A stretch of 64,000 nt of DNA from the NCBI RefSeq assembly GCF_024029895.1, contig NZ_CP097457.1, forward strand, positions 1-64,000, given 5' to 3'. The position numbers and the translations under genes were made by a program. Of the stretch, positions 46,394 through 55,283 are shown piece by piece. Below the pieces are notes generated by a model. That model was not told the DNA's origin. It did not search any database and was given only the letters and a program-made list of their open reading frames with translations. This stretch comes from Buchnera aphidicola (Periphyllus lyropictus). GTDB lineage: Bacteria; Pseudomonadota; Gammaproteobacteria; Enterobacterales; Enterobacteriaceae. The stretch's first letter is position 1. Every line of letters starts with the position of its first letter.

Positions 46394-46420
46394 AAAATTA
46401 ATATAAAAAAAATTAATTTT
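46394..46420. terminator. AT-rich inverted repeat between convergent rpmG and fliR
   Basis: AAAATTAAT at 46394-46402 pairs with ATTAATTTT at 46412-46420, loop of 9. It overlaps the fliR stop codon region by a few bases. Being AT-only it is weak evidence, but it lies where a terminator is needed. Confidence 0.3.
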
Positions 46421-47192
46421 CAATTTTATAAAAAATTTTTAATAATGATGAATAATTTTTATAAAAATATGTATCTAAATAAGAAATAATAAAAAAAGTT
46501 AAAAAATAAAAAGAAATCATTCCAGCAAAAGTTATTATAGAAAAACCAATAGAAAATATAGATAATTGAGGAAAAAATTTATTTAAAAAACATAAAGCTA
46601 AATTTAATGATAATAAAATAACAATAATAGGTAAAATAATATGTATTCCACTAATAAAAACAAAACTAAAATAAGACGAAATTAAAAAAAGAACTCTAAA
46701 ATCAAAAAACTTTATATTTATAGGAATATAATTAAAACTCTGAACAATAGTATGAATAATCCATAAATGACCATCTATTGATAAAAATAAATAAAATATT
46801 AAAAAATTTAAAAAACGAGATACAATTGGAAAATTTGAAGAAGTATTCATATCAAAGAAATTAGAAAATGAAAGACCAGTTTGTGATCCAAAAATTTCTC
46901 CAGCTATATTTGAAATAGAAAATATTAAATTAATAGAAAAACCAATTATTATTCCTATAAATATTTGTTCAAAAATTATCTTTAAAAAATTTAAAAGATT
47001 TAAGGAAAAAAAATCTACTGAATAAAAATTAATTACAATAAAACAAAAAAAAAAAGATAATACAATTCTTAATTGTAAATTAAAATAATTACTATTAAAT
47101 ATTGGTATAGTAAATAAAATAAAATAAATTCTTAAAAAAATAAAAAAAAAAATTAATATGTAAAAATTTATATTTTGAGAAATAATATTCAT
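46413..47192 (-). CDS. fliR: Flagellar export protein FliR
   Basis: Part of the FliPQR export gate in the inner membrane. 259 residues (E. coli 261). About six hydrophobic segments; IFGSQTGLSFSNFFDMNTSSNFP matches the FliR-conserved GLSFAT/DP region, and FFPQLSIFSIGFSI the LNLFSIGFP-like block. Last in the fliM-N-O-P-Q-R run, separated from fliQ by 19 bases. Confidence 0.94.
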   Translation of the reverse strand: MNIISQNINFYILIFFFIFLRIYFILFTIPIFNSNYFNLQLRIVLSFFFCFIVINFYSVDFFSLNLLNFLKIIFEQIFIGIIIGFSINLIFSISNIAGEIFGSQTGLSFSNFFDMNTSSNFPIVSRFLNFLIFYLFLSIDGHLWIIHTIVQSFNYIPINIKFFDFRVLFLISSYFSFVFISGIHIILPIIVILLSLNLALCFLNKFFPQLSIFSIGFSIITFAGMISFYFLTFFIISYLDTYFYKNYSSLLKIFYKIEN

Positions 47193-47211
47193 CTATTTAA
47201 TACCATAAATT

Positions 47212-47484
47212 TTATGAACCTATAATTAAAGGCATATTATTAAATAAATTATCAATATAATTAATAATAATACGTAACATCCAAGGACCTAAAAAAAACA
47301 AGACAAAAAGAACAGAAATTACTTTTGGTATAAATGACAAAGTTTGTTCATTAATTTGAGTAGCTGCTTGAAATATACTAATAACTAATCCACTTAATAA
47401 AACAGATAACAAAATTGGAGATGATAACATTAATAATGTTTTACTAGCATCAAAAAAAATCTTTTGTAAAAAATTTATATTCAT
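47212..47484 (-). CDS. fliQ: Flagellar export protein FliQ
   Basis: Two-helix subunit of the export gate. 90 residues (E. coli 89). Hydrophobic segments at about 15-40 and 53-78; SGLVISIFQAATQINEQTLSFIPK is the highly conserved loop. Between fliP (42 bases) and fliR. Confidence 0.96.
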   Translation of the reverse strand: MNINFLQKIFFDASKTLLMLSSPILLSVLLSGLVISIFQAATQINEQTLSFIPKVISVLFVLFFLGPWMLRIIINYIDNLFNNMPLIIGS

Positions 47485-47526
47485 AAATAAACCCTAATTA
47501 AAAAATTTTTCAATAAAAAATTTATA

Positions 47527-48264
47527 TTAATGAAAACTACGAGATAAAGAAGTAATTAACAATTTCCAACCATCTGATAAAACAAAAATAATTAATTTTA
47601 AAGGAAGTGAAACAGTTGATGGAGGTACCATCATCATTCCTAAAGACATTAAAATACTTGAAACTAATAAATCGATAATTAGAAATGGAATAAAAATTGA
47701 AAATCCAATTTTAAAAGCAGTTTTTAATTCACTTGTCATAAAAGCAGGAATTAATACACGAAAAGATATATCTTCTTTTTTATATGAAAAATTTAAATGA
47801 GCTAATTTTGAAAAAACTAATAAATCTTTTCTTTTCGTTTGATTAAACATAAACTCTTTTAATGGATTTAAAGTTTTATTTATTGCTGTTTTAAAATTTA
47901 TTTTATTTTCGTCAAAAGGAACATAAGCATTATTATAAATTTTATTTAAATATGGTTCCATAATAAAAAAAGTTAAAAATAAAGATAAACCAAGCAAAAT
48001 TTGATTTGGAGGTACATAAGGTGTACCCATTGCGTTCCTTAACAAACCAAACACTATAATAATACGAGTAAAACACGTCATCATTAAAATTATAATAGGT
48101 ATAAATGTCAAAAAAGATAAAAAAATAAAAATTTGAAAAGCTGAAGAAAATTCTAAAGAATTAATATTTTTATGAAAAAGATCATCAAAATTAAATATAT
48201 TTTTTGCTTCAGCATTTATAGAAAAAAATGTTAAAAAAAACATAAAAAACAATCGAAATATCAT
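47527..48264 (-). CDS. fliP: Flagellar export protein FliP
   Basis: Core of the export gate. 245 residues, equal to E. coli. N-terminal signal peptide (about 1-20, ending around SINAEA), then hydrophobic segments; [48 protein letters not shown] (read in parts) and [21 protein letters not shown] are the family core. Precedes fliQ. Confidence 0.97.
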
Positions 48265-48300
48265 AATTTTATTTTAACTCTTTAAATGTATGTAAAAATT

Positions 48301-48630
48301 TTATTTTATTGAATATTTAATTTTATTTTTTTTATTATTTAAATTTTTTTTTTTTTTAGTAGTAAATGTATGTAATTTTACTATTTTTTCTGAAGTAATT
48401 CCAAGTACTAATTTTACTTTATTAACATTTAAAATAATTATTTTAGTATTTGAATCAACAAAAATAATTGATTTAATTTTTAAATCAGAAGAATTTTTTT
48501 TATTATATAAAAAAAAAATTTTAATTATTATAAAAATTAATAATAGTATAAAAAATATATAAAAAAAATTATTATTTTTTATATTATTTAATGAAAAATA
48601 ATTATATATAGATAAAAAATAATTGTTCAT
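48301..48630 (-). CDS. fliO: Flagellar assembly protein FliO
   Basis: Helps FliP assemble into the export gate. 109 residues (E. coli about 121). One transmembrane segment at about 22-42, then the soluble domain with IKSIIFVDSNTKIIILNVNK and LVLGITSEKIVKLHTF, matching the FliO pattern (VVLVDV, LLLGVTPGRISLLH). C-terminus lysine-rich. Identification rests on this pattern and on its place between fliN and fliP. Confidence 0.8.
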   Translation of the reverse strand: MNNYFLSIYNYFSLNNIKNNNFFYIFFILLLIFIIIKIFFLYNKKNSSDLKIKSIIFVDSNTKIIILNVNKVKLVLGITSEKIVKLHTFTTKKKKNLNNKKNKIKYSIK

Positions 48631-48684: not shown

Positions 48685-49944
48685 TTATTTTTTAGAATTA
48701 ATAACTTTTATTATTCTAATTCCATATTTTTTTTTATAAAATACTATTTCTCCTTTAGCAATCAAAAAATTATTAATAAAAACATTTAATAATTTTCCAG
48801 AAAAATTATTTAAAATAATAGTAGAATTTTTTTTAATTTTTAATAAATCTTCTATTTTTATTTTTAAAGAACTTAATTCAATAGTAATTTTTATTGGAAT
48901 TTTTGAAATTATATCTATATCTTTAAATAAAAAATCATCTTTAACATTTATTTTAGGAACATCTATTTTTAAATTTTTTTTATCTAATGTTTTATCAAAA
49001 TAATTAATATCTTTAATATTAACATCAGTTTTTTTTAAAATATTTTTATTTTTATTAATTTTGTTATGCATTAATAATAATCCTATAATTTTTTTAAAAA
49101 AAATTTTTTTTGAAATTTTTTTTTTAAACAATATTATTGATTTATTATCAAGAATTTTATAATTTCCATTAATTAAAGGTATATTATTAATATAAACAAC
49201 TATTTTTTTTGGATTATTTATAGGAATTACATTATTTTTTTTTATATTTAAAATATTTTTTAATGTACAATTACATTCTCTTGATTTAACAATAATAGTA
49301 TATTTTATTTTTTTTATAATATTTATTATATTTGTTTTATTTTTTTTATATAATAATATATTTATTTTATTTTTCAAATTATAAGGAATTAAAATATAAA
49401 ATTTATTAAAAATATTTTTAAATTTAAAAAAAAAACTAGAAATAATATATGAATTACTCATATTTGAAACTAAGTAATTAGAAAAAAAAGAAAATTGAAG
49501 ATCATGAATTATATTTATTTCTAATAAACAAACTTTACTCCATGAAAGTAAATATAATTTAATAAATTTACTAAAAAAATCTTTTAATACAAATTTATTT
49601 AAAAAAAAATTATTGTTTATATCATTTTTTTTATTTATAAATAAATTATTTCCCCCAAAAACATTTTCTATTATTTCAAAAATAAAAACATTTGGAATAA
49701 TAAAATAAAAGTAATCAGAAGTAGGAAAAAATTTTACTGTAATATAACTAATAGATTGATTAAAATATTTTTTTAAAAAAGAAAATTTACAACAAAATAT
49801 ATCTAAATTTTTTACTTTAATTAAAAAATTCATTTTTTTAAAAAAAAATTTTTCTAAAGTATAAGAAAAATTTTTATTAATTTTTTTTAATAAATTATAT
49901 TTTATATTTTTATTCTCTTTTTTAAAAAAATTTATTTTTTTCAT
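48685..49944 (-). CDS. fliMN: FliM-FliN fusion, flagellar C-ring protein
   Basis: 419 residues in one frame. Residues 1-291 are a degenerate FliM: FPTSDYFYFIIPNVFIFEII, ENVFGGNN, LYLLSWSKV, and a SPOA-like domain with NNVIPINNPKKIVVYINNIPLINGNY. No CheY-binding EIDALL motif is seen at the N-terminus. From Met292 (ATG at 49071-49069) the sequence is FliN: after a poorly conserved arm, FKDIDIISKIPIKITIEL, LNNFSGKLLNVFINNFLIAKGEIVF and YGIRIIKVI match FliN of Salmonella (DIDLIMDIPVKLTVEL, INGYLIAQGEVVV, YGVRITDII). E. coli has two genes of 334 and 137 residues. FliN may also be made from the internal ATG. Confidence 0.88.
   Translation of the reverse strand: MKKINFFKKENKNIKYNLLKKINKNFSYTLEKFFFKKMNFLIKVKNLDIFCCKFSFLKKYFNQSISYITVKFFPTSDYFYFIIPNVFIFEIIENVFGGNNLFINKKNDINNNFFLNKFVLKDFFSKFIKLYLLSWSKVCLLEINIIHDLQFSFFSNYLVSNMSNSYIISSFFFKFKNIFNKFYILIPYNLKNKINILLYKKNKTNIINIIKKIKYTIIVKSRECNCTLKNILNIKKNNVIPINNPKKIVVYINNIPLINGNYKILDNKSIILFKKKISKKIFFKKIIGLLLMHNKINKNKNILKKTDVNIKDINYFDKTLDKKNLKIDVPKINVKDDFLFKDIDIISKIPIKITIELSSLKIKIEDLLKIKKNSTIILNNFSGKLLNVFINNFLIAKGEIVFYKKKYGIRIIKVINSKK
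49081..49084 (-). promoter_or_regulatory. Shine-Dalgarno site for internal FliN start
   Basis: AGGA on the minus strand stands 9 bases before the in-frame ATG at 49071-49069. It would allow a 128-residue FliN to be made in addition to the fusion protein. Its presence inside coding sequence could be inherited from the separate fliN gene. Confidence 0.5.
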
Positions 49945-50105: not shown

Positions 50106-50540
50106 TTATAAAAAATAAAATAAATTAATTAATTGTTCTAATTTTTTTTTTATAAAAAAATTTTTTTTATATAAATCTTTAAAAGATAATTTTTTATATA
50201 ATATATCAAATTTTTTGTAATTTTTTTGAATATTAATTAATTTTTTAGTATTTTTTTTTATTTTCATTAAAACAATATCTTTTTTTTTATTATAATTTAT
50301 GATTTTTTTTTTCATAAATTTAAAAAAATTATTAAAATAATTTAAATAAAAAAAATTAGTTTTATTATTTAAAAAAATATTATTTTGATATGCATTTTTA
50401 AATTGAATTTTTTTTAAAAAAATCAATTTATTTTTAATTTTTTTTTTTTTTTTTAACAATTTTTTTAAATAATTTTTTTTTTTAATTTCATTACATTTAT
50501 TTATCTTAATTAATAACTTAAAAAAATTAAAATTTTTCAT
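50106..50540 (-). CDS. fliJ: Probable flagellar export chaperone FliJ
   Basis: 144 residues (E. coli 147), very rich in Lys, Asn, Phe and Ile. No motif is strong; predicted largely helical and coiled-coil like FliJ, which escorts export chaperones and engages the FliI ATPase. Its place directly after fliI (29 bases) is the main reason for the name. The next gene in E. coli, fliK, and then fliL are missing: only 161 bases separate it from fliMN. Confidence 0.72.
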   Translation of the reverse strand: MKNFNFFKLLIKINKCNEIKKKNYLKKLLKKKKKIKNKLIFLKKIQFKNAYQNNIFLNNKTNFFYLNYFNNFFKFMKKKIINYNKKKDIVLMKIKKNTKKLINIQKNYKKFDILYKKLSFKDLYKKNFFIKKKLEQLINLFYFL

Positions 50541-50569
50541 AAAATTTTTATAAAATTAAAAAAATATTT

Positions 50570-51940
50570 TTAAAATATTTTTTTTAAATGTTGAATAGAT
50601 TTTTTAAAATCATAATTAATATTAATATCCTGTTTTAAAAATTTTTTTAAATAATTTTGAATTTTTAAAGATTTATCTAAAATTAAATTATTTCCTCGAA
50701 CATATACTCCAACACTTAATAAATCTTTATTTTTCTTTAAAGAAAATAAATATTTCTTAAAAAGAATACTTAATTTATAATGAAAAGGAGTAACTATATT
50801 AGACATAACTCGACTCATAGAAGAAGAAATATCAATTGCAGGAAAAATACCTTCATTAAAATAATTTTTAGATAAAATAATATGACCATCTAAAATAGAT
50901 TTCACAAAATTAGAAATAAAATCTAAATTTTCATTTATATCTGTTAAAATAGTGTAAAAAGCTGTAATTGAACCACTATTTTTACTTTTTCCATTACCTG
51001 AACGTTCTAATAAATTAGAAATTTTAGAAAAAACAGAAGTTGGATAACCATTTAATGAAGGAAATTCTCCACATGACAAACTAACTTCTCTTTGAGATAA
51101 AATATATCGAGTTAATGAATCAATTATTAATAAAACTTTAAAATTTAAATCTCTAAAATATTCAGCAACTCTAGTTGCATATTCTGCACCTTTTATTTTT
51201 AATAAAGCTGAAGAATTAGAAGGTGAAGCTATTACTATTGCTCTTAATAAACCTTTTTTTCCTAGAATATTTTCTATAAATTCTTTTATTTCTCTTCCTC
51301 GTTCTCCAATTAATCCAATTACCACAATATCTACTTTACTATATTTAGCAATCATTCCTAATAAAAAACTTTTTCCTAAACCAGCTTGAGAAAAAATTCC
51401 TATTCTTTGACCAACCCCAATAGTAAGTAAAGCATTTATAGATCGAATTCCTACATCAAAAACATCTGAAATAGGAAATCTATTCATAGGATTAATAAAA
51501 TTTTTAGAAATTAAATTATAATATTTTATAGAAGATTTAAGTAATCTTCCATCTAAAGGTTGCCCTAATCCATTTAATACTCTTCCTAATAATGATTTTC
51601 CAAGAGGAATTTTATATAAACAATTAAAATTATTTTTATATCCCTTATTTTTAGAATAAACTCTTGCTCCTGGATAAAATCCATAATTATCACAAAAAAC
51701 TATTACAAATAATTTATTTTTTTTAAAATTAATTACCTCACCTTGAGCTTCTAAAATATCATTATCAACATAACGTTCAATATAACATATTGATCCTATA
51801 GGTAAAACTAAACCTTGAACTTCTAATAATAAACCAGTAACTTTAACTAATATTCCATGATGAATAATTTTTGGAAATTTTTTTAAATTTTTATAAATAT
51901 TATTAATATTTTTTAACCAATTATTTATTTTTTTATTCAT
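50570..51940 (-). CDS. fliI: Flagellum-specific ATPase FliI
   Basis: F1-like ATPase of the export apparatus. 456 residues (E. coli 457). Walker A GIFSQAGLGKSFLLGMIAK, catalytic Glu in IGLIGERGREIKEF, Walker B VLLIIDSLTRYILSQREVSL, and GSITAFYTILT are all intact; DVGIRSINALLTIGVGQRIG is standard. fliI overlaps fliH by 4 bases, indicating translational coupling. Confidence 0.97.
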   Translation of the reverse strand: MNKKINNWLKNINNIYKNLKKFPKIIHHGILVKVTGLLLEVQGLVLPIGSICYIERYVDNDILEAQGEVINFKKNKLFVIVFCDNYGFYPGARVYSKNKGYKNNFNCLYKIPLGKSLLGRVLNGLGQPLDGRLLKSSIKYYNLISKNFINPMNRFPISDVFDVGIRSINALLTIGVGQRIGIFSQAGLGKSFLLGMIAKYSKVDIVVIGLIGERGREIKEFIENILGKKGLLRAIVIASPSNSSALLKIKGAEYATRVAEYFRDLNFKVLLIIDSLTRYILSQREVSLSCGEFPSLNGYPTSVFSKISNLLERSGNGKSKNSGSITAFYTILTDINENLDFISNFVKSILDGHIILSKNYFNEGIFPAIDISSSMSRVMSNIVTPFHYKLSILFKKYLFSLKKNKDLLSVGVYVRGNNLILDKSLKIQNYLKKFLKQDININYDFKKSIQHLKKIF

Positions 51941-52608
51941 AAATAATCCTCTAAAAAAAGTAATTTACACATTTCGTTCCAAGAAAAAGGAATATTAGCA
52001 TTAAAAAAACTTTTATTAAAAGAAATTCTACATCCTCCAGGAAGAACTGAATTATCAATTATAATTTTACAATTATATTGTAATAAAATTTTTTTAAAAG
52101 TTTTAGATATTAATTTTTTATCTTCTTTATGTATAAATAATTTTATTTTTCTTAATCCATCAAAATTATCTCTTAAAATTTTCTTAACATTAAATAATAA
52201 TATAGATTTCTTAATAACTGGTTGACTTTTAATAATACGAGCTGCAATTTTTAAAGAAATACATGCAATTTTTTTAGATATATTAGAATCTAATAAATCT
52301 AAAGATAATTTAAATTCAGACAAAATTTTTCTTAATATATATTGATTTTTTTTTTTAATTTTTAAATATTTTAAAAATTTTTTTTGAATTTTTTTTTTTT
52401 TAAATGATTTTTCTAACAATTCTTTATTTTTTTTAAAATATTTATTTTTTTTTAAAAACTTATTTTTATATTTATTTTTTTTTAAATTATAAAATAAATT
52501 TTTATTTAAATTTAAATCTGAATTTTTTATTTTTAATTTGTCTTGATCCTTTAACAATTTTTTAGGATTCCATAATTTCCATTTTTTTTTAAAATCAGAA
52601 TCAGACAT
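51937..52608 (-). CDS. fliH: Flagellar assembly protein FliH
   Basis: Regulates FliI and links it to the C-ring. 223 residues (E. coli 228). KKWKLWNPKKL is the Trp-containing N-terminal motif that binds FliN (E. coli LPWKTWTPDDL-like), then a long Lys-rich helical region, and a C-terminal domain with VKKILRDNFDGLRKIKLFIHKED and LPGGCRISFN. Overlaps fliG by 8 bases and fliI by 4. Confidence 0.9.
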   Translation of the reverse strand: MSDSDFKKKWKLWNPKKLLKDQDKLKIKNSDLNLNKNLFYNLKKNKYKNKFLKKNKYFKKNKELLEKSFKKKKIQKKFLKYLKIKKKNQYILRKILSEFKLSLDLLDSNISKKIACISLKIAARIIKSQPVIKKSILLFNVKKILRDNFDGLRKIKLFIHKEDKKLISKTFKKILLQYNCKIIIDNSVLPGGCRISFNKSFFNANIPFSWNEMCKLLFLEDYL

Positions 52609-53596
52609 TTAAATTTCCTAATTTTTTTACTAAAGAAAATTTTTTCTTAAAAATTTTAATTAAAAATTTTAAAACATATTTTCTAGATGAATTAATGTCT
52701 TCTATTGAATATTGAATATTATCGTTTAAATAATATAAAATTTTTTTTGCATTTTTTTTAGAAATATTTTGAAAAATTTTTTCTTTTAATAAATTATTTG
52801 ATTGAATTAAAGAAATTGATAATTTTTTTAAATTTATATTTTTTAAAAAAATTTTTATATCTTGATCACTTAAATCTAAAATATCGTTTAAAGAAAACAT
52901 ATTTTTTATAATTTTACAAGCTAAATTTTTATTTTTATTAAAAATATTTTTTAATAAAGAATTTTTTTCTTTTATATCTAAATAGTTTAAAATTTTTGCA
53001 GAAATTTTATATCCAGATTTTTTTAATATTATATTATTAAATTTTTTTAAAATATCTTTCATTATTTTATTAAATTTAACTAATCCAAATAATTCAATAC
53101 CATTATAATTTGAAATTCTATAAATTATTTCATTTCTCATATCTTTATCAAAAGTTAATAATATTTTTGAAGATTGAGAATAATTTAAACAAATTAAAAT
53201 CATAGAAATAATTTGAGGATGTTCATTTTTAATTAAAAATCCTATTTTATTAGGATTTATTAAATTAAAAGTTTGAATAATTTTTTTATTAATTTTTATA
53301 TTTTTAGAATAATTTAAAAATTCTTTTTTATTTTTTTCTCCAAAAGAATTTATTAATAATGAAGTTAAATGATCTTTTTTTAAAAAATTATTATCTAAAT
53401 ATTTTTTATAAATTTTATTATATTCATTTAAGACATTTTTTGTATCTGAAACGAAAATTTTTTCATTTATTATCATAAAATTAATAATTTCTTTAATTTC
53501 ATAAGTTGTTAAATGTTTTAAAATCAATAAAACTTCATTTTCACTCATTGACATTAATAATATTATACTTTTTCTTAAACCATTTTTACTAATCAT
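52601..53596 (-). CDS. fliG: Flagellar C-ring protein FliG, torque residues lost
   Basis: Binds FliF and forms the rotor. 331 residues, exactly as E. coli, so numbering agrees. NGLRKSIILLMSMSENEVLLILKHL, EHPQIISMILICLNY (EHPQ motif) and LLKEKIFQNIS are well kept. The five torque-related charged residues change: Lys264 to Ile, Arg281 to Lys, Asp288 and Asp289 to Tyr, Arg297 to Ser. The scaffold is retained without rotation chemistry. Overlaps fliF by 8 bases. Confidence 0.95.
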   Translation of the reverse strand: MISKNGLRKSIILLMSMSENEVLLILKHLTTYEIKEIINFMIINEKIFVSDTKNVLNEYNKIYKKYLDNNFLKKDHLTSLLINSFGEKNKKEFLNYSKNIKINKKIIQTFNLINPNKIGFLIKNEHPQIISMILICLNYSQSSKILLTFDKDMRNEIIYRISNYNGIELFGLVKFNKIMKDILKKFNNIILKKSGYKISAKILNYLDIKEKNSLLKNIFNKNKNLACKIIKNMFSLNDILDLSDQDIKIFLKNINLKKLSISLIQSNNLLKEKIFQNISKKNAKKILYYLNDNIQYSIEDINSSRKYVLKFLIKIFKKKFSLVKKLGNLNV

Positions 53597-55283
53597 TATT
53601 TTTATTAATCCATTTTCTAATAATCATAGCTGATATTTCTGGATCATTTTTAAAAAAATCAGGAACTTTTTCTTTAAATTTTTTATTTTTATAAATAGTT
53701 TCTTTGTTTTCTTTTATATATTTTTCTTCTAATTTATTCTCAATTAAATTTATATTTGTAAAATATTTTTTAGCATATTTCATAAAAATAAAATTACTGT
53801 TTTGAATTTTTTTTGTTAAACGTTTAAAAGAATAAAAAGAAGTAAACAGTAATATTCCAAAAAAAAATAAAATAAACCAAGGAACTAAAATAAACATTTT
53901 ATTGAAACTTTCTTTTTTATGAATAGGAGAATATTTAAGTAAAGAAGATTCTGAATTACAAAATCTATAATTAACAATATTTATAGAATCTCCTTTATAT
54001 AAAGAAAATCCTATAACTCCTTTAACTAATTCTTTAATATTTTGTAATTCTTTAGAATTTAAAGGAACATATTCTCCTTTAGCATTTTTTTTATCATTTA
54101 TAAGTATAGAAACTGATAAAGTTTTAATTTTTCCAAAACTAAAAATTTTTCTTGAATTTTCATGATCTTTTTCATTAAAATTTTTTGAAATATTACTAAT
54201 TTTAAAATTAAAATTTTTAAGTTTTTTATCATCTAAATTTAGATTAATAGATTCAAAACGATTAATTTTATTTTTTTTATTTAAATTGAATGTTTTAGTA
54301 GGAAAAAAATTAACAATAGAAGTAACATATTTTTTGTTTCCATTTTGATGTAAATTTAAAATATTATTATTTTCAATATTTTTATTTAAAAAAATATCAT
54401 TTATTTGTTTATTAAAATTAGAACAATAAGATTCATTTATTTTTTCATTTATATTAAAATCAATTTGAGCAGTTACTCTAGCTAATACATTATTTTTTCC
54501 AAATATTGGAAATAATAAACTTTCTATTTTTTTTTGATATTTATTCTCAATTAAATTAATATAATTTAAATTTTTATCATCAATACATTGATAAGAATAA
54601 TTCTTAGGATTACTTAATAATTCTCCAAATTGATTAATAATAGAAATATTTTTTTTTGGTAAATTTGATATACTATTAGATAAAAGCTCAATAATTGAAT
54701 TAGAAATATCAAAATCTTGTTTTTTATTATATGTATTTATATTTAAAAACACCGAAGCTGAAGAAAAATTATCTTCATCAAAAAAAAAAGAAGTTTTTGG
54801 AATAGCAATATGTACTCTTGCGCTTTGAACAAAATTTAATTTTTCTATTGTTCTTGATAATTCTCCTTCTAAAGCTCTTTGATAATTTATTTGTTCATTA
54901 AAATCACTAATTCCAAACCTTTCTTTATCTAATAATTCAAAACCAGGAAGATCATTTTTTGATTTAAAATTTAAAATATGATTTTGAAATTCATTAATCT
55001 TATCTTCAGGAATTAATAAAGAACCTGAATTTAAAGAATATTTATATGGAATATTTAAATTTATTAATTTTCTAATAATAACTTTACTATCTGAAAAAGA
55101 TAAATTTTTATAAATAATTTGATAATTAGAACTTTGAATTCTAGAAGATAAAAAAGTAACAATAATTAATCCAAAAAATAAAATAAAAAAAACTGTTTTT
55201 ATATTTTTTTTTAAATAAAAAAATATTTTTTCAAAAATATTTTTTTCATTTAGATCTAAATTCTCTATAATAGGAATTTTCAT
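53589..55283 (-). CDS. fliF: Flagellar MS-ring protein FliF
   Basis: Forms the inner-membrane MS ring that houses the export gate. 564 residues (E. coli 552). N-terminal transmembrane segment about 30-47, ring-building domains with YKNLSFSDSKVIIRKLINLNIPYK, GFELLDKERFGISDFNEQINYQRALEGELSRTI (read in parts) and SARVHIAIPK, a second transmembrane segment about 465-485, and a C-terminal tail ending SAMIIRKWI for FliG binding. First gene of the fliF-G-H-I-J run; divergent from fliE. Confidence 0.97.
   Translation of the reverse strand: MKIPIIENLDLNEKNIFEKIFFYLKKNIKTVFFILFFGLIIVTFLSSRIQSSNYQIIYKNLSFSDSKVIIRKLINLNIPYKYSLNSGSLLIPEDKINEFQNHILNFKSKNDLPGFELLDKERFGISDFNEQINYQRALEGELSRTIEKLNFVQSARVHIAIPKTSFFFDEDNFSSASVFLNINTYNKKQDFDISNSIIELLSNSISNLPKKNISIINQFGELLSNPKNYSYQCIDDKNLNYINLIENKYQKKIESLLFPIFGKNNVLARVTAQIDFNINEKINESYCSNFNKQINDIFLNKNIENNNILNLHQNGNKKYVTSIVNFFPTKTFNLNKKNKINRFESINLNLDDKKLKNFNFKISNISKNFNEKDHENSRKIFSFGKIKTLSVSILINDKKNAKGEYVPLNSKELQNIKELVKGVIGFSLYKGDSINIVNYRFCNSESSLLKYSPIHKKESFNKMFILVPWFILFFFGILLFTSFYSFKRLTKKIQNSNFIFMKYAKKYFTNINLIENKLEEKYIKENKETIYKNKKFKEKVPDFFKNDPEISAMIIRKWINKNND

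Follow-up and report, generated by a model that had tools for sequence, protein, structure and literature searches.

The window analysed here, namely positions 1-64000 (64,000 nucleotides) of the single-contig, 456,890-base genome (G000) of the Buchnera aphidicola symbiont of Periphyllus lyropictus, contains the flagellar genes fliM and fliN fused in frame into one open reading frame (ORF). The fusion is genuine and present in the sequence. At a rough probability of 60%, we read it as probably one of four or more such fusions, each of separate origin, in Buchnera genomes of strongly reduced size, having as its output a fused chain plus free FliN, in the manner of the injectisome protein SctQ and by convergence with it; the two products, their ratio and any export role are what we infer. 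The features on which this reading is built are the following, where the Shine-Dalgarno energies are those defined further below:

48685..49944, minus strand: fused fliM-fliN ORF of 419 amino acids (aa), P0001, an open frame
49333..49902, minus strand: FliM middle (CheC-like) domain, about residues 15-204
49129..49317, minus strand: SPOA1, the FliM C-terminal domain (PF01052, 31.4 bits)
49089..49125, minus strand: old fliM tail with A10, A8, T8 and A7 runs, the likely site of the putative frame-joining insertion or deletion (indel)
49081..49084, minus strand: AGGA, Shine-Dalgarno-like site of the internal start (energy -4.0)
49069..49071, minus strand: Met292, internal ATG at the FliN start, in the same alignment column as the junction Met of six fusions of genus g77
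49064..49066, minus strand: TAA in another frame (ATGCATAA), offset +5, a possible relic of the fliM stop
48685..49071, minus strand: predicted free FliN product of 128 aa, from Met292 to the stop
48931..49062, minus strand: disordered linker, residues 295-338 (predicted local distance difference test, pLDDT, <50 in the predicted structure)
48700..48909, minus strand: SPOA2, the FliN domain (PF01052, 54.4 bits)

The translated ORF runs through 419 codons without an internal stop and holds the FliM middle domain, the FliM SPOA1 and the FliN SPOA2 in one uninterrupted frame. PF01052 (FliMN_C) matches it twice, both times above the cut-off of 23.8 bits, and a profile search of the whole genome found no third match, so no second FliM or FliN SPOA domain. 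The NCBIfam FliM model covers residues 15-271 (42.4 bits; curated cut-off, 219.6) and the FliN model residues 343-417 (70.2 bits; curated cut-off, 84.05); since both scores fall below their cut-offs, the protein is divergent. Among 5000 first-order random sequences, the 71-codon stretch of residues 272-342 stayed open in a fraction of 0.0002, and the whole 419-codon ORF in none; the open frame is far beyond chance for its own composition. The first-pass annotation of this DNA had proposed such an in-frame fusion, and the open frame with its two PF01052 domains bears it out. The canonical N-terminal peptide of FliM, the role of which is CheY binding, is absent from the fused protein: the FliM model alignment begins at profile position 48, and the LSQ-EIDALL stretch of the free-living rows faces a gap of the fusion in alignment A3. 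Structure prediction, carried out with alignments lacking separate FliN rows (A3, A4), has SPOA1 pairing with SPOA2 of the same chain. A 64-row alignment with FliN rows (A2), in which the SPOA1 of FliM was misplaced over SPOA2, was dropped for folding. Protein searches with the fusion or with alignment A1 returned only the fusion itself, or the latter together with the fusion of genome G362 (P0002, labelled as FliM/FliN family in its own source); about 7990 candidates were scored in each, which is uninformative on rarity. A tblastn search with the fused protein against plasmids gave no match.

Met292 stands at the FliN start, with a spacer of 9 nucleotides (nt) to the AGGA, in agreement with the internal fliN start that had been claimed as preserved. 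Shine-Dalgarno strength was expressed as duplex energy to a 16S tail that has no match in the window, against a background taken from this window alone. The -4.0 of Met292 is matched or beaten by 8.9% of 192 internal in-frame ATGs (mean, -0.9) and reached by 31% of 42 gene starts (mean, -3.3), and lies about at the median of 32 unfused fliN starts (-4.2). The internal start is credible, yet in this single genome it appears modestly above chance. The four homopolymer runs lie within the last 18 codons upstream of Met292 and take up 33 of 37 bases between -54 and -18; a frame shift either way hits a stop at -25, -14, -2 or +5. The TAA of ATGCATAA stands at the spacing where the unfused locus L225 has its fliM stop (ATGGATAA). 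The ATGA over the fused starts was also considered as a strong relic of the fliM stop and set aside as weak, given that it needs just an A after ATG and that A makes up 48% of the ORF; at the G362 junction its counterpart reads CTGA.

The fusion recurs among symbiont genomes. PF01052 matched 293 of 392 genomes of the family; 36 of the matched genomes, none larger than 700 kb, were put through a second search together with G000 and G005 (38/38 matched), and the genera searched whole gave matches in 6/6 (g77), 15/16 (g11) and 4/11 (g84) genomes. The loci read were 59 symbiont loci, including those of ten congeners from g1, the genus of this genome, to which the Periphyllus aceris symbiont (G001) also belongs; G373, a small matched genome with a short contig, was left out. 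Each fused ORF was translated, the open-frame column of the search table not being relied on. A search of Buchnera for the same fusion had been suggested beforehand, and fliM and fliN share a single open frame at 11 of the 59 loci: in G000, in all six g77 genomes (G422, G415, G293, G360, G215 and G086; 456-461 aa), in three of g11 (G020, 454 aa; G429, 461 aa; G432) and in one of g84 (G362, 427 aa). The g77 carriers include the symbiont of Ceratovacuna japonica (G360). At the G432 locus (L201:5363-6890), a FliM-like N-terminus apparently lies in another frame. A seeming 499-aa open frame in the 4.1-Mb genome G041 (L029) is not a fusion, as the ORF list has a stop after FliM. Among the 13 unfused pairs with a FliM SPOA1, four overlap by 4 to 17 nt and nine lie 3 to 48 nt apart.

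A junction ATG is present in 10 of the 11 fused frames. At the six g77 junctions, GGTGAT, GGTGAA or GGAGAT is followed by three bases and then ATG, with energies of -6.4 to -8.7; the value is -6.9 in G429 and -2.9 in both G020 and G432. Fifteen alignment columns contain Met in any of the six g77 sequences; just two of these, that of the first residue and that of the junction, have it in all six. Invariant positions amount to 8/49 in the linker and 86/333 in FliM. The junction start looks maintained in g77, and is plausible in G000 and G429. With regard to selection, median pairwise ratios of nonsynonymous to synonymous substitution rates (dN/dS; NG86 method, with dS partly saturated and pairs without usable dS dropped) come to 0.56 (FliM part) and 0.29 (FliN part) across the six g77 genomes. 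The corresponding figures for unfused genes are 0.80 and 0.58 in g98 (five genomes), 0.63 (4 of 5) and 0.30 (a single pair) in g69, and 0.70 (9/12) and 0.51 (6/12) in core Cinara. The fused g77 gene is not under weaker constraint than unfused genes.

The number of separate origins was approached with a tree built from up to eight proteins (fliG, fliI, fliP, fliQ, fliR, ppa, rpmB and gltX) over 62 rows and 1616 columns (LG+G4, quick search); gltX was found in 14/62 rows and most of its columns were removed by the filling filter, composition varies among rows, and four g1 rows are less than half filled. The fused rows are spread over four clades, one per genus and all starred at 99-100; apart from g77, every one of them also contains unfused rows. 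Once the ten rows without usable fliN are excluded, the remaining 52 (11 of them fused) need five changes of fusion state; such counts give no direction, which was taken from the outgroup. A single clade of all fused rows is rejected (p-AU 2e-56). At least four separate fusions (g77, g11, g84 and g1) are probably the simplest reading of this tree. The only other g1 genome with fliN, G005, has a free FliN of 118 aa and no fliM, and since it lacks fliM it is uninformative on whether the g1 ancestor was already fused. Its locus (L130:6168-7758) contains fliG and an intact free fliN, with no fliH, fliI or fliM ORF between them; FliN can thus outlast FliM.

The organization of the unfused genes suggests a route. 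In four free-living loci (L045, L046, L047 and L048), the two genes share 4 nt in different frames, fliM stop and fliN start being combined in ATGA; a fifth (L057) has an overlap of 8, and the unfused g84 genomes G218 and G435 retain the ATGA. In free-living relatives, the fliN ribosome site (GAGGAAC) and start are located inside the last codons of fliM, in another frame. Because the pair overlaps in different frames, a small indel can fuse fliM and fliN and spare the fliN ribosome site. Starting from an enterobacterial ancestor whose ATGA overlap would have placed fliN in a frame other than that of fliM, a net indel in the fliM tail would join the frames, leaving the ribosome site and start of fliN untouched. 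Two products might follow: a FliM-FliN chain, with SPOA1 and SPOA2 pairing mutually across the flexible linker, and a free FliN from the internal start, which would dimerise and join the fused chain. Together they would restore the set of 1 FliM to 3 FliN SPOA domains, like SctQ-FL plus two SctQ-C. Buchnera is not known to have CheY or Mot proteins; without switching or rotation to serve, tethering FliM to one FliN would cost little. McDowell et al. (PMC4832279) regard SctQ-FL as equivalent to a FliM-FliN fusion, and SctQ-C to free FliN, and Notti et al. (PMC4443714) describe FliH binding as stronger to FliM-FliN than to FliN alone; in view of this equivalence and binding preference, one would expect a natural fusion to retain some source of free FliN.

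The flagellar genes around the fusion are arranged as follows:

50106..55283, minus strand: fliF, fliG, fliH, fliI and an ORF at the fliJ place, upstream of the fusion
46413..48630, minus strand: fliO, fliP and two ORFs taken for fliQ and fliR from their position and length, downstream of the fusion

Along the minus strand, the order is fliF, fliG, fliH, fliI, fliJ place, fusion, fliO, fliP, fliQ place and fliR place. The ORF at the fliJ place (50106-50540 of the window, 144 aa) is lysine-rich and without Pfam or NCBIfam match. G000 also keeps FlhA, FliE and a FlgK-like ORF. Adjoining flhA (L241:3599-4653), flhB is split in two ORFs of 84 and 243 aa; the place of the FlhB cleavage motif NPTH reads SGFLK. 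The FlgK-like ORF (FlgK_D1, E 4.7e-8) and a family-less ORF of 231 aa (L244:19000-19902 and L245:13-708) adjoin rne, the neighbourhood of which is presumably the place of the flg cluster in other Buchnera.

The FliMN_C domain is missing in nine of the ten g1 congeners in the PF01052 search. At the locus of these nine (L125-L129, L131-L134), the next gene after fliF, no more than a few hundred bases away, is fliO or fliP, and the fliG-fliN block is missing: fliF and fliP are present in 9/9, fliO in 7/9 and fliQ in 6/9, and none of fliG, fliH, fliI, fliM or fliN was found there (fliG, fliH and fliI were not sought elsewhere in these genomes). The nine congeners have an export gate without a C-ring at this locus. 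FlgG was found in 0/11 g1 and 0/3 g84 genomes, in a search where 12/26 genomes match, and PF00460 rod domains in 0/11 g1 genomes, by a 31-position model without a Buchnera positive control. The apparatus is being dismantled in genus g1, and the G000 fusion may be a late stage of this and not an improvement. The first-pass annotation had also proposed a shift of the C-ring toward an injectisome-like exporter, with which these losses sit poorly, as does the kept FliM middle domain; the fusion occurs, moreover, in genomes that keep FlgG above the cut-off (G360, G422, G429 and G432), FlgG being a remnant with stops in G020. A change of frame between two overlapping genes under relaxed constraint could account for how the fusion arose.

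Other changes affect these genes in relatives. In 12 core-Cinara genomes of g11 (L199, L200, L202-L211), the FliM ORFs are about 204-236 aa long, match the profile of the FliM middle domain (in L210 at no better than E 0.75) and all end near the same profile position, and no SPOA1 was found between FliM and the free FliN; this is a consistent loss of a single domain, possibly from a fused ancestor. Genome G430 is presumably that of the Cinara cedri symbiont, and hence we take g11 to be the Cinara clade; the middle domain is the only part of FliM that its 204-aa ORF matches. For the Cinara cedri symbiont, fliM has been listed as absent (PMC3246468). The fliP gene lies inside an ORF of 357-421 aa, as though joined to fliO, at L214, L215, L216, L220, L225, L226, L229, L232, L237, L238 and L240, and the FliP of the pea-aphid strain is given as 43 kDa (PMC8109811). 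Joining of adjacent flagellar genes may be common in Buchnera.

Several observations weigh against a fused chain accompanied by free FliN. The join in G000 depends on the homopolymer runs, where the fusion would be created or destroyed by a single miscalled base; close relatives offer no confirmation, as the only congener with fliN, G005, has lost fliM. In G432, where the frame spans 416 codons between stops, no ATG precedes the junction, and the fliM half of this fusion may be broken. The junction Shine-Dalgarno of G020 and G432 is weak: 22% of internal ATGs do as well as its -2.9. In three fusions (G215, G429 and G432), the junction ATG is outscored by an internal ATG elsewhere in the frame. 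The G362 junction has no ATG, reading CTG after AAGGAG (-9.2), and free FliN is doubtful in this genome. The three g11 fusions as one clade were not rejected (p-AU 0.07), and may be one event. Finally, FliN persists without SPOA1 in core Cinara, and SPOA1-FliN pairing is therefore dispensable in some Buchnera.

Some of these points also speak for neutral decay, by which the frames drifted together in a vanishing machine, the fused chain is the sole product and the fliN start is left over without a use. The losses of FliMN_C (9/10 congeners) and FlgG (11/11 genomes) in g1, the CTG of G362 and the weak sites of G020 and G432 fit this explanation, as do the many relatives in which fliO and fliP look joined, since joining of overlapping genes may be general. 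We nevertheless consider it rather unlikely: in g77, the start Met and a strong Shine-Dalgarno are kept in 6/6 genomes while 41 of the 49 linker residues vary, dN/dS of the fusion is no higher than in unfused groups, and FlgG is kept by G360 and G422.

It is quite improbable that the fusion is an assembly artefact of G000, in which a base lost or gained in the A10, A8, T8 or A7 run would have joined genes that really overlap. The density of runs before Met292, the stops met by both other frames near the FliN start and the flhB of G000, likewise in two frames, speak in favour of such an error. On the other side, 42 long ORFs of the window, though chosen for openness, stay open through 256 runs of eight or more, and the fusion is found in ten other genomes, three of which (G360, G020 and G362) lack any run of six or more ahead of the junction. 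In G360 no A or T run of this length occurs within 75 nt upstream, and the assembly of this Ceratovacuna japonica symbiont was polished using Illumina reads (PMC9672956); for both reasons, sequencing error cannot explain the fusion generally. Transcript slippage at the runs, by which faithful transcripts would give the fusion, slipped ones only FliM, and the internal start FliN, is hardly credible: a shift in G000 does meet a stop in either direction, and transcript insertions in Buchnera are found chiefly in A/T runs, more often the longer the run, but the indel rates given in the same source are about 1e-5 per transcribed base, with no frame-restoring case seen there (PMC5574713), and G360, G020 and G362 have no such run.

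A fused FliM-FliN chain with free FliN bears on the origin of SctQ from FliM and FliN, an unsettled question of type III secretion evolution. One group of symbionts offers a natural series: genes that overlap unfused, fusions that retain the start, a fusion that has CTG in its place, and FliM lacking SPOA1. The series suggests a cheap fusion route from overlapping genes plus one small indel. In Buchnera, it can be tested directly if FliM and FliN need to be two proteins when nothing rotates. Since Buchnera basal bodies have already been isolated (PMC8109811), the two-product prediction is open to mass spectrometry. Among the titles and abstract openings listed for the open PMC literature, no report of a Buchnera FliM-FliN fusion was found, subscription papers lying outside its coverage, nor was any mention found in the available parts of PMC8109811, PMC9317480, PMC9116674, PMC9672956 and PMC13063649. 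Tentatively, and at somewhat less than even odds, Buchnera may have repeatedly and independently re-evolved a C-ring subunit of the injectisome kind, with a two-SPOA chain and, by way of an internal start, a free SPOA2 from one gene. If so, these symbionts would be replaying in nature the flagellum-to-injectisome change of a C-ring part, and the separation of FliM and FliN would serve mainly rotation and switching, not export.

Among known systems, SctQ (SpaO, YscQ, Spa33) is the one whose layout had been likened to this gene, and the likeness stands, also in light of the equation made in PMC4832279: a single SctQ gene encodes two SPOA domains and also contains an internal start, whose product is the C-terminal SPOA2 (PMC4443714; PMC4832279), and the Buchnera fusion has two SPOA domains in one chain, with mutual pairing predicted, plus a start and Shine-Dalgarno for a candidate SPOA2-alone product. 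Unlike SctQ, it retains the FliM middle domain, which McDowell et al. (PMC4832279) infer not to be present in Spa33, and it lies in a flagellar operon, flanked by fliF, fliG, fliH and fliI and by fliO and fliP, with no injectisome cluster. The SctQ model TIGR02551 scores it at 18 bits (cut-off, 100.8) over residues 337-412 only, below the FliM and FliN models. By family scores, neighbourhood and FliM middle domain, the protein is flagellar and not a member of SctQ. It differs from FliY, which combines a FliN SPOA with a CheC-like domain, in having the FliM SPOA1 in between, and in that G000 has no other FliMN_C domain. With the separate fliM and fliN of other Buchnera and Enterobacteriaceae it shares place, order, domains and fliN start, there distributed over two genes. 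A Salmonella FliM-FliN fusion mutant (Kihara et al., 1996, known through PMC4832279 and PMC4443714) and the engineered FliM(SPOA)::FliN of PDB 4yxb/4yxc (Notti et al., 2015; PMC4443714) were made in the laboratory, whereas the Buchnera fusion is natural and recurrent, with the fliN start kept.
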